The position numbers were made by a program, and so were the translations under genes. The notes under the pieces were generated by a model. It was not told the DNA's origin. It searched no databases and saw nothing but the letters and a program-made list of their open reading frames with translations. From an uncultured Bacilli bacterium (GTDB lineage Bacteria > Bacillota_I > Bacilli_A > RF39 > UBA660): a stretch of DNA of 33,849 nt. Below, piece by piece: positions 17,971-33,849 of the stretch (position 1 is the stretch's first letter; each line of letters begins with the position of its first letter). The DNA is taken from NCBI GenBank assembly GCA_944363935.1, contig CALVVT010000020.1, positions 1 through 33,849 on the forward strand. The letters run 5' to 3'.

Positions 17971-20900
17971 TTACAATGTCAAAGTATATGGGTTATTTTG
18001 ACTCCCATTACCCCCAGTTATTTTAATATCTGATTTTAATGTTACTACAGGTCGGACGCCGCGCTCGTTGAACGCAGCGTTGCTGCCGAGGTTACCACCA
18101 CTATTCACGGTCCATATAAGGCGCGAAGAAACATTCGATAGCGGCGTCATTGTCCACCAATAACTTATGCTACTTGTATACATCCAGTTATGACTACTAC
18201 TATTACTATAACAACTACTTCCACTTATACTCATATATGCATATACGCTAGAACAAGATGTATTATTACTCGCTCTGACATATTCTGTTGCATCGACTAA
18301 TCCTATTTTCCCTTTCCATTTTGCGGCACTTACTTGTGTCATATCCGTGCTTGCTGTTTGACTACTTGTATAATATAATACTCCTACTTTATATATTGCA
18401 TCTTTCTTTATCATACTTTTCGCTTCCGCATTTAATCCATTATAGTATGTTACATTTAAATACGTATTTAATTCTGCTTCTTCTTCTGGTAAAGCATATT
18501 TGCTACCGCCTACTTGATGTGCTAATTCTGTTATTTTATTTATTCCACTAAAATCATATAACGTACTTTTACTCCCCCAAATATTACAACCAAACGTTTT
18601 TGACTCATTACAATACTCACTTGTTGCTCTATAACCAGGGCCATCATATTCCATATTTTCTAATGATGATATTCGCATTATCTTAATTGCATTATCACTG
18701 GTATTGGCACTTACTATTCTCCATAGTTCATTATTAAAGCTAACATAATTATTTGGGTTTGCTCCCCGATATGTGTACACATTCTCTTCTTGTGAGTCTT
18801 TATATAATCCATCACCAGTATTTACTACACCAGCCATATCTACTAGGTCACTACCAGCTGAAGCTATTTCTACTGAATATGTTGCTGTTTCAGTATTTGT
18901 TCCATCTGTTACTCTCGCTACTAATATTCCACTTTCAGTAAACTCTACTTGCTGACTTTGAGTAGCAGTAGTCCATGACCCATCATCTTTTTGATATTCA
19001 TAGGTTAATCCTGTTCCTTCTGGATATGTTATAGTTACGGTTTTTGCCTTGTCACCACTTTCACTAAACGTTGGTTTATCTAATTTCAATGTTCCAATAC
19101 CTTCCATAAGTTCGAATGGATTAGAAATATTTCCCTCTCCACCAGTAATTTTAACAGCTGAAGATAAAGTTACTACGGGATAGACTTGATAAGAATTACT
19201 GGCATAATAAGCATAAACTTGACCACTGCCATTAATATACCAAACATGATTAGAAACAGGCGTAGAAGCCGGCGACATTGTCCAATATGTAACACCATTT
19301 AAATACAGCCAATTATTTTTAGAACAAGGATATGGTGATTGTCTTGAAGAATAAATATTTATACATCCATTATCTGTACTAGCTTTTAAATACTCATTAA
19401 CATTTATTAAGGCAACACTGCCCTTCCATTTTACAGAATTAGCATAATTTACTTCTTGCATCAATGTATTGCTACTCAAATGGCTAACCACTCCAGCTTG
19501 ATAAACATTTTCAACTATCATCCTTCGCGCAGTTGCTGATAGTTGATTATAAAAAGTTGTATTTAAATATGTATTTAAATACGCATCACTTTTTGGTAAT
19601 TGATAAACATCATCACTATATCCGTCATAATATATATCAATAGCTTTAACTGATTCCATATTTCTATTGTATAAAGTATTATTACTTCCCCAAATATTAC
19701 AGCCATAATATGAATTAACATCACTTGCATAACAATAATCTGTAGAAACATCAGAAAATCTTATAATAGTATCTTTTTCACTTTCACTAGATGAAAAGTT
19801 TAAATCATATGACATATTTCCTAACGAATTATTTTTTAATATTTTTATTGTATTATTATCACCATCAATACTTATTATTCGCCATAGTTCATTGTTAAAA
19901 TTTACATAGTTATTTGGATTCGCTCCTCTATATGTATATATATTTTCTTCATACTTATCTTTATATAAGCCATCTCCACTAGAAACTACATTATCAGTTA
20001 AATTAAGTGATGCACTTAATTCTCCTTCAGCAGTTAAACCTATTCCATTAGTAACTCTCACACTTATCTCATAACCTGTATTTTGTGTTAAACCAGTAAA
20101 TATGTAAACATTATTAGTACCATTATCTATCCACTCATTATCATTTATTTTAAATTCATATTTACTTATTCCACTCTCTTCGTCACTGGCTGTTACTACT
20201 ACTGTTATACTATTAGTTGTTGAACTGGTACTGACATTTTCTATTACTGGAGGGGTATCGTCTGGTGATTTAAATATCGCATATAAAGTTACATCACTAG
20301 TTCCCATAGTAAGCTCTTTTAAACCTTCTTGAGCAGCTTTATTCGTATTCCAACCTATAAAGTCATATCCCTCTTTGGTAGCTGTATAACTTAAATTAAT
20401 ACTTTCTCCTTCATTTATATATTCATTTTCAGCAGTAGTACTACTTCCTCCATTGGTACTATAATCATATGTTACTAAATGATTCTTTTCTGGTTCTATT
20501 GTTCCCCCACTATTTTGAACAAAATCTAAATCTATTTTTGCTTCGCCACTTGTTCCTGATGCATCTCCTTCATAGGAAGAATTATATTCTATTTTTACTT
20601 TTAAAGTAGCAGTACTATTTTTATACAAAGTTTGACCTTTAGTTAGTCCTGAACTGGTTATTTTAACAGCTTCATTGTTACTATTAGTAATACCAATAGT
20701 TTCTAACTTCGCATCAAATGTTCCTTTATTTTCTACTATAATACTATATTCTACATAGTCTTCTTTTTCATATAAATTAGCTTCTAAACTAGCTGATAAA
20801 TCATTATAAGCATTTTTTACATTTTCTCCCGTTCCATTTGTATCAGTTACGTCCGCACTGATTATTTTTATATCCCAAGAACTACTAATATCGGTTGTAC

Positions 20901-21009
20901 CTGTTATATTAATACTGGTTTTAAAAGCAGCATAGCCTACTCCCATTAAACATAAAATACCTATTAGTATTAGAATAATAATTTTATTTCTTCTTTTTTC
21001 CCTATACAT
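17971..21009 (-). CDS. Modular surface protein with C-terminal variable C-type-lectin-like domain
   Basis: A 1012-residue exported protein. Visible order: a basic N-terminus and hydrophobic signal/anchor (residues 1-28, ending GVGYAAF, like SipW-type/TasA-like surface proteins); an Ig-like domain to about 170; a Listeria-Bacteroides repeat at about 180-245 (GYDFIGWNTNK, DVTLYAIF); an FN3-like domain at about 250-335; a first lectin-like domain at about 340-635; an Ig-like linker (KPTFSES to YSVEIASAGSDL); and a second lectin-like domain to the end. Both lectin-like copies start GDGLYK...NVYTYRGANPNNYV and end in PVVTL...KITGG, and resemble DUF6273-type domains. No sortase motif is seen. The last copy holds a GC-rich patch (18051-18155) that is a candidate hypervariable region. 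ATG 21009 has GGAGG upstream. A double-HTH regulator is divergent from it. Confidence 0.85.
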   Translation of the reverse strand: MYREKRRNKIIILILIGILCLMGVGYAAFKTSINITGTTDISSSWDIKIISADVTDTNGTGENVKNAYNDLSASLEANLYEKEDYVEYSIIVENKGTFDAKLETIGITNSNNEAVKITSSGLTKGQTLYKNSTATLKVKIEYNSSYEGDASGTSGEAKIDLDFVQNSGGTIEPEKNHLVTYDYSTNGGSSTTAENEYINEGESINLSYTATKEGYDFIGWNTNKAAQEGLKELTMGTSDVTLYAIFKSPDDTPPVIENVSTSSTTNSITVVVTASDEESGISKYEFKINDNEWIDNGTNNVYIFTGLTQNTGYEISVRVTNGIGLTAEGELSASLNLTDNVVSSGDGLYKDKYEENIYTYRGANPNNYVNFNNELWRIISIDGDNNTIKILKNNSLGNMSYDLNFSSSESEKDTIIRFSDVSTDYCYASDVNSYYGCNIWGSNNTLYNRNMESVKAIDIYYDGYSDDVYQLPKSDAYLNTYLNTTFYNQLSATARRMIVENVYQAGVVSHLSSNTLMQEVNYANSVKWKGSVALINVNEYLKASTDNGCINIYSSRQSPYPCSKNNWLYLNGVTYWTMSPASTPVSNHVWYINGSGQVYAYYASNSYQVYPVVTLSSAVKITGGEGNISNPFELMEGIGTLKLDKPTFSESGDKAKTVTITYPEGTGLTYEYQKDDGSWTTATQSQQVEFTESGILVARVTDGTNTETATYSVEIASAGSDLVDMAGVVNTGDGLYKDSQEENVYTYRGANPNNYVSFNNELWRIVSANTSDNAIKIMRISSLENMEYDGPGYRATSEYCNESKTFGCNIWGSKSTLYDFSGINKITELAHQVGGSKYALPEEEAELNTYLNVTYYNGLNAEAKSMIKKDAIYKVGVLYYTSSQTASTDMTQVSAAKWKGKIGLVDATEYVRASNNTSCSSVYAYMSISGSSCYSNSSSHNWMYTSSISYWWTMTPLSNVSSRLIWTVNSGGNLGSNAAFNERGVRPVVTLKSDIKITGGNGSQNNPYTLTL
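18051..18155 (-). other. Candidate hypervariable region (DGR-type VR) in the 1012-residue protein
   Basis: About 57 % GC by hand count inside a gene that is otherwise near 33 %. It encodes the stretch from WWTMTP to GVRP. Both borders, TATTGGTGGAC on the 5' side and GGCGTCCGNCCTGTAGTAACATTA on the 3' side, are shared with the paralogue at 32294-32400, while almost every codon between differs. Confidence 0.55.
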
Positions 21010-32214: not shown

Positions 32215-33849
32215 TTATAACGATAATTGATAGCTATTGGTAGAACTTCCGTATCCTCCAGTTATTTTAACATCTGGTTTTAATGTTACTACAGGGCGGA
32301 CGCCGTACGAGTGGTAAGCGAAGCTGATGCTGAAGTTGCCGTCATTGTCCACACGCCACACATCGTACGAGTAGCCGCTAGAATTCGGCGACAAGGTCCA
32401 CCAATAATCACTATTGAACATCCAATTGCTATTTTTACATGGTGCACTACTTTGATATCCTTGATATACACTTGTACAACTACTATATGTACTGGCTCTG
32501 ACATATTCTGTTGCATCGATTAATGCTACTTTTCCTTTCCATTTCGCTGCGTTTACTTGTTCTATATCTTGACTCATACTTGTATTATTATTATATAATA
32601 CTCCTACTTTATACACTGCATCTTCTTTTACCATACTTTTTGCTGTCGCATTTAACCCGTTATAGTATTCTCCATTTAAATACGTATTTAATGGGGCTTC
32701 GGCTGTTGGTAATGTGTATTTTGTTCCATTATACTTTCTTCCAAGTGTCGTTATTGGACTTAAATTACTATCAAACAAGGTACTACTACTTCCCCAGATA
32801 TTACAGCCCCAATCATTATCGTTACAATATCCACTACTTCTTTGATATCTTCCGCTTGGCGTATCAAATTGTCTATCTGATAACACTCCATTTCGCATTA
32901 TTTTAATAGTATTATCACTTGTATTAACACTGATTATTCTCCATTGTTCACCATTAAATGTAACATAGTTATTTGGATTGGCTCCTCTATATGTATACAC
33001 ATTCTCTTCATAACTATCTGCATATAATCCATCTCCACTGGTTACAACCCCGGCTTGGTCTACTAAATCACTTCCTGCACTAGCTATTTCTACACTATAG
33101 GTTGCTGTCTCTTCATTTGTTCCATCTGTTACTCTTGCTACTAATGTACCACTTTCACTAAATAATACTTGTTGTGATTGAGTTGCGGTTGTCCAGTTTC
33201 CACTATCTTTTTGATACTCATATGTTAAACCTTCGCCTTCTGGATATGTTATAGTTACGGTTTTACCATTATCTCTTTCTTCTTCACTAAATGTTGGTTT
33301 ATCTAATACACTGGTACTTGCTTGTTTTTCTTCACTTTCTACTTGTAAATTGTCTCTATTTGTTACTCTTACCTTTATTGTATGACTTGTATTTTGAGTT
33401 AGTCCTGTAAAGGTATATGTATTACTTCCTTCTACATATTCATTATTATCTATTTTATATTCATATTTTGTTATTTCTCCATCTTCATCAGTAGCTGTGG
33501 TTACTACTGTTATACTATTGGTCGTACTGGTTGTACTTACATTATCTATCACCGGTGGCGTCGTATCTATTTTTCTAAATATCGCATATAGTGTTGTATT
33601 ATTTGCTGGCATTGTATAACTTTCTAATCCTGTTACGGCATCTTTATCTGTATTCCAGCCCATAAATTCATAACCAGCTTTACTAGCTGTATACTCTAGA
33701 TTAACATTACTTCCTTCAGCTGCATAATCATTTATAGCATTACTACTTTCTCCTCCATTTGTACTATAATCATAAGTTACATAATAATCATTTGCTGGTA
33801 ATGGATTATCACTATCTTGAGCTACATCTATACTTACATCTAAATCTAC
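32215..33849 (-). CDS. Surface protein paralogue with variable C-terminal lectin-like domain, 5' end outside window
   Basis: The frame is open to the right edge of the window, so the ATG at 33663 is internal (it falls inside the repeat EFMGWNTDK) and the true start lies beyond. Visible order from the edge: the end of an Ig-like domain, a Listeria-Bacteroides repeat (TYDYSTNGGESS to TTLYAIF), an FN3-like domain, an Ig-like linker (KPTFSEEE to YSVEIASAGSDL) and one lectin-like domain (GDGLYADSYEENVYTYRG to KITGG). Sequence and order match the 1012-residue protein at 17971-21009 closely, but this one has a single lectin-like domain in the visible part. Its C-terminal patch at 32294-32400 is GC-rich and differs from the other copy. 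The stop lies only about 16 bp before the -35 of the deoC operon on the same strand; no terminator is evident between them. Confidence 0.85.
   Translation of the reverse strand, partial: VDLDVSIDVAQDSDNPLPANDYYVTYDYSTNGGESSNAINDYAAEGSNVNLEYTASKAGYEFMGWNTDKDAVTGLESYTMPANNTTLYAIFRKIDTTPPVIDNVSTTSTTNSITVVTTATDEDGEITKYEYKIDNNEYVEGSNTYTFTGLTQNTSHTIKVRVTNRDNLQVESEEKQASTSVLDKPTFSEEERDNGKTVTITYPEGEGLTYEYQKDSGNWTTATQSQQVLFSESGTLVARVTDGTNEETATYSVEIASAGSDLVDQAGVVTSGDGLYADSYEENVYTYRGANPNNYVTFNGEQWRIISVNTSDNTIKIMRNGVLSDRQFDTPSGRYQRSSGYCNDNDWGCNIWGSSSTLFDSNLSPITTLGRKYNGTKYTLPTAEAPLNTYLNGEYYNGLNATAKSMVKEDAVYKVGVLYNNNTSMSQDIEQVNAAKWKGKVALIDATEYVRASTYSSCTSVYQGYQSSAPCKNSNWMFNSDYWWTLSPNSSGYSYDVWRVDNDGNFSISFAYHSYGVRPVVTLKPDVKITGGYGSSTNSYQLSL
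32294..32400 (-). other. Candidate hypervariable region (DGR-type VR) in the second surface protein
   Basis: About 58 % GC by hand count in AT-rich surroundings, encoding WTLSP through GVRP. Codons such as AAC, AGC, TAC, GAC, CAC, TCG and GGC dominate, the usual products of randomising A in AAC/AAT-rich templates. Borders are identical to those of the patch at 18051-18155. Confidence 0.55.

Follow-up and report, generated by a model that had tools for sequence, protein, structure and literature searches.

Surface-protein genes and GC-rich patches in the window

The window, i.e., the whole stretch of DNA analysed (33,849 nucleotides), is the complete contig C20 of a 1.27-Mb Bacilli MAG assembled in 95 contigs, with a completeness of 94.6%. 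A gene on the minus strand (32215-33849) runs into the contig end, which removes its 5' end, so the N-terminus of the protein is not seen. Its product has a List_Bact_rpt/InlB-B repeat, a region weakly matching Fn3 and, at the C-terminus, a DUF6273 domain (PF19789, 38.1 bits, above the gathering cut-off of 23.5). The GC-rich patch (about 58%) described in the initial annotation was located within the last 60 codons: read on the minus strand, the 90-base stretch richest in G+C reaches 58%, against 25-38% in the adjoining 120-base windows of the gene. Its codons are mostly NNC or NNT, set among fixed TCT, TCG, GTG, TGG and GGC.

The stretch homologous to the template repeat (TR) of a diversity-generating retroelement (DGR), here called the variable repeat (VR), covers 32294-32392 on the minus strand and matches the template of G020, a different genome from this genus, without gaps. 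Read from 32392 to 32294, its first part is GTCGCCG AAT TCT AGC GGC TAC TCG TAC GAT GTG TGG CGT GTG and its remainder is GAC AAT GAC GGC AAC TTC AGC ATC AGC TTC GCT TAC CAC TCG TAC GGCGTCCGCCC. The 3' border GGCGTCCGCCC (32294-32304, minus strand) recurs in nearly all VRs of sibling genes and in the templates of G020 and of contig C73 of the source genome, and from this sequence it is presumed to be the candidate initiation-of-mutagenic-homing (IMH) side. The 5' border TTGTCGCCG (32386-32394, minus strand) consists of GC-rich codons common to the siblings, and the G020 template carries TTGTTTGGTCGCCG at this place. Just past the 3' end of the gene there is a T-box leader (Rfam RF00230; 31983-32165, minus strand), upstream of a DeoC-family aldolase gene and then a tyrosyl-tRNA synthetase-like gene.

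A paralogous surface protein is encoded at 17971-21009 (minus strand); it has a hydrophobic segment at its N-terminus and combines List_Bact_rpt and Fn3 with two domains of the DUF6273 type. Its patch (18048-18126, minus strand) was compared with the G020 template and differs from it at 16/27 A and 10/52 non-A positions. The 3' border GGCGTCCG.CC is in common with the VR at 32294-32392, and the skeleton has drifted. The two patches had been proposed to have the same borders, which holds for the right (3') side and only in part for the left (5') side. The patch is probably an older VR; the 10/52 non-A differences indicate that it is either older or differently templated. Pairing the two patches, as the initial annotation did, is thus correct as to their kind but not in the details.

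A structure model of 32218-33030 (minus strand), comprising DUF6273 and an N-terminal extension, was built from a 38-sequence alignment. The model is confident (pLDDT 96.7), and VIA-align matched it to 9qa6 (Z 17.3), Lcl 8q4e (Z 6.3), TvpA 2y3c (Z 5.7) and many C-type lectin domains, the Z-scores other than that of 9qa6 being middling and thus supporting the fold class only. The model bears out the C-type-lectin-like domain expected in the initial annotation, and the VR lies at the C-terminus of a target with this fold, as in DGRs. In the model, the varied residues are predicted to sit in the C-terminal hairpins of the domain; a published DUF6273 model likewise has the VR on a surface hairpin (PMC10743442). 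The match to 9qa6 spans residues 37-304, the N-terminal part of an IgA peptidase of Thomasclavelia ramosa.

Variation among sibling genes and template adenines

The C-terminal DUF6273 domain has 52 matches in the source genome, several of them at contig ends. Comparison of the gene ends, the check proposed in the initial annotation, revealed that one A-rich skeleton explains 13 genes with VRs of equal length, which align codon for codon and differ at NNC/NNT positions; two more (C45 and C4:42201) match the skeleton with length or local changes. Many other copies (e.g., on C28, C24 and C95) have AT-rich codons and no trace of the template, so diversified and undiversified paralogues coexist, and most other DUF6273 genes of the genome are outside the reach of this template type. 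Judged from the sequences, 14 or more surface-protein genes dispersed over the genome appear to have been served by one template type. The suggestion of one mutagenic system serving several receptors is in this way upheld for the 13 genes, and the 18-kb paralogue fits it poorly, only in part. The VR of the window is identical to the skeleton of its 12 siblings at 60/66 constant columns, a resemblance that is not due to chance; four of the six exceptions fall where the skeleton base is A, and relative to the siblings there are two G-to-A changes.

The mean minor-base frequencies at the first, second and third codon positions are.286,.207 and.043 in the VR and.056,.077 and.278 in the adjacent conserved block. 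Pairwise identity of the VRs is uncorrelated with that of the adjacent block (Spearman rho -0.05). Fixed third codon positions and the absence of a kinship signal are the reverse of ordinary divergence.

The template form implied by the VRs (~TCGCCGAATTCTAACAGCAACTCGAACAATGTGTGGAATGTGAACAGTAGCGGCAACNTCAACAACAACAACGCTAACAACTCGAACGGCGTCCGCCC) was written down and used as a search query. In the source assembly (95 contigs, 94.6% complete) only VRs were matched, with 75-85% identity, and the exact template was not found; nor was an intact match found in 44 genomes of the genus, or the exact pattern in viral contigs. The nearest sequence was a non-coding stretch of G020 (C50:993-1093, 91% match), after which come ORFs resembling MutS_I and bAvd and then an RT. 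Because this template is real and comes from another genome, it provides an independent test of the A pattern. By column, 33/34 A of the template vary among the 13 VRs and 58/62 non-A are constant (P-value = 3.7e-20); conversely, the template has A at 33/37 variable columns and non-A at 58/59 constant columns. By position, the 13 VRs differ from it at 244/442 A and 99/806 non-A (OR 8.8, P-value = 3.7e-58). The VR on C54 differs at 18/34 A and one of the 62 other positions, and that of the window at 18/34 A and 9/62 non-A (96-base codon alignment). Tree-like divergence over the patch and lack of any link to template A, which the initial annotation had named as evidence against its proposal, were thus both contradicted by the data.

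About eight of the non-A differences from the G020 template are fixed in the VR class of the window, for which a second (or older) template version is assumed to be the writer. Within G020 itself, two VRs (L093 and L095) have the window-class skeleton, and two others (L097 and L098) are nearer to the G020 template. An AAC-rich 59-codon ORF at C7:3486-3650 (G000, L060) was a candidate for the missing template but was discarded: it is without the 5' half, differs from the C22 template at 14/51 non-A positions and continues into a gene tail. This sequence, in which the tail of a DUF6273 gene is joined to a 3' half resembling a template, lies 3' of a tyrosine-recombinase-like gene, and the left flank before the template on G004:C74 is very similar to its own. 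It may be a mobile template or a chimeric assembly.

RT cassettes and possible template turnover

An RT search of the source genome identified three DGR cassettes, on C73, C79 and C22; on C20 there was no RT match, so no DGR machinery was seen in the window. The order is target, TR, bAvd, a 214-codon ORF and RT on C73; two targets, a small ORF, TR, a small ORF, bAvd and RT on C79; and TR, MutS_I, bAvd and an RT split by a frameshift on C22. A MutS-like accessory, MSL, has reportedly been described in an earlier survey. The C73 TR and its local VR differ at 15/30 A and 0/80 non-A positions, the pattern by which DGRs are recognised, and those of C79 at 15/31 A and 3/70 non-A positions. The RTs of C73 and C79 are intact. 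In the PDB, the C73 RT is most closely related to 8ub7 (E 3e-27), titled 'Reverse transcriptase', which we take to be the Bordetella phage bRT. All three cassettes encode the (I/V/L)GxxxSQ motif (IGNETSQ, IGGLTSQ and IGNMTSQ), which defines DGR RTs (PMC3521204). The Avd accessory family PF22296 was matched on C73, C79 and C22 with 47.8, 38.4 and 34.8 bits, the cut-off of 40 bits being exceeded only on C73. DnaB, used to check C22 as a contaminant, is single copy in the genome. With regard to phage origin, no phage record encodes the DUF6273 domain, and identity to viral RTs is no more than 24-35%. In the genus, DUF6273 was found in 41/44 genomes and bAvd matches in 27/44.

The C22 RT (L048, about 1556-1565) and the RT of a second cassette, L108 (G006:C8), are both split at the same run of ten A, which may reflect a pseudogene mutation common to both or slippage during transcription. 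In eight cassettes (alignment A4), a strongly conserved TTATGAAC..GTCATAA inside CTCTCT..AGAGAA lies about 65 bases beyond the template. RNAalifold predicted a hairpin in this region with little covariation; the element is probably a hairpin of the template RNA, its variation being too small for proof by covariation.

The two cassettes L048 and L108 show no difference in the 2.1 kb that follow the template and one in about 4.4 kb of cassette, yet 25 differences fall at L048 12-115, which takes in the 5' portion of the template and the bases immediately preceding it. An assembly fault is possible in this pair, because the template on C22 is located at the end of its contig. In one cassette pair, template identity is 80% against a cassette identity of 100%, and in G002/G019 the cassette is 95.8% and the template 84.8% identical. 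If real, these comparisons suggest that templates change faster than the cassette machinery, the less expected result. It is conceivable, though somewhat doubtful, that templates of the genus are rewritten fast (codons inserted, lost or replaced) with the cassette constant, in which case the VR copies would record successive template versions and the DGR would explore scaffolds as well as residues.

Origin of the patch and related systems

We consider it very probable that a DGR wrote the patch as the VR of one of its target genes, from an A-rich template elsewhere in the genome. Such a TR would lie beside MutS_I-like, bAvd-like and DGR-type RT genes. Reverse transcription of an RNA copy of it would insert random bases opposite the adenines of the template, and the cDNA would replace the 3' end of any DUF6273 gene with the shared borders, leaving NNC/NNT codons that vary between fixed TCT, TCG, GTG, TGG and GGC. 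The changed residues, in lectin hairpins of secreted or anchored proteins, would presumably alter what these proteins bind.

Ordinary positive selection on the binding site of a duplicated lectin family would also place varied residues in the C-terminal hairpins of the lectin fold, where selection would act. However, third codon positions of the VR are almost fixed, in contrast to the adjacent block, VR identity is independent of kinship in that block, and the coincidence of variable columns with A of an independent natural template refutes such selection, which is hardly credible as the source of the patch. Without any mutagenic template, gene conversion or the shuffling of cassettes could spread a GC-rich skeleton through the many DUF6273 paralogues with common borders. 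Shuffling, however, would draw on variants that are already present. The VRs instead vary independently of one another at almost all template-A columns and scarcely anywhere else; the 13 aligned VRs are not mosaic-like in appearance, and TR-VR pairs beside RT genes give the same A-specific pattern. We regard this origin as highly improbable.

The gene may instead be a former target, its VR written by a DGR whose template and RT have since been lost in the species, so that the VRs are fossils. The assembly has no matching template, the RT on C22 is frameshifted and the VR of the 18-kb paralogue has drifted, all as expected from such a loss. On the other hand, 13 genes have kept their skeleton columns almost free of mutations, a sign of recent copying, and the other two cassettes keep intact RTs; moreover, with a completeness of 94.6% and many targets at contig ends, the template was likely lost in assembly. 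Fossil VRs are thus an unlikely explanation; the DGR that wrote the patch may be active at present.

Several known systems resemble the present one. DUF6273 has already been reported as a DGR target whose VR is C-terminal (PMC11792537), and DGRs of Faecalibacterium prophages and gut phages likewise combine a DUF6273 target, A-specific variation and a lectin-like fold (PMC11792537, PMC10743442). Those phage DGRs have one or two targets, whereas the present genome is cellular and contains 14 or more remote targets as well as accessory genes. In cyanobacteria, including Trichodesmium with its 18 TR/VR-homologous loci, one DGR serves many scattered C-type-lectin paralogues, as here (PMC7517822, PMC8867640). 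The cyanobacterial variable proteins are mostly predicted to be cytosolic (PMC7517822, PMC8867640), whereas the paralogue in the window has a hydrophobic N-terminal segment and surface-protein repeats, and the present genome, at 1.27 Mb, is a further difference. DGRs with the MSL accessory (MutS-like, PF01624) also have a MutS_I gene beside Avd and RT (PMC10053308), although the order found here, TR, MutS_I, bAvd and RT, is unlike theirs. TvpA of Treponema denticola (2y3c) is a DGR variable protein with a C-type-lectin fold that matches our model, but its sequence identity is low (9%) and its overall domain is different. DUF6273 targets, MutS_I accessories and remote VRs have therefore all been published already, and what is unusual is the number of targets; no published account of this genus was found in the literature.

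In this near-minimal, host-associated gut bacterium, dozens of surface genes appear to be given over to a single diversification system within the genome. Such a natural many-target DGR makes the products of one template comparable over more than a dozen scaffolds, and offers a way to test the evolution of the templates themselves.
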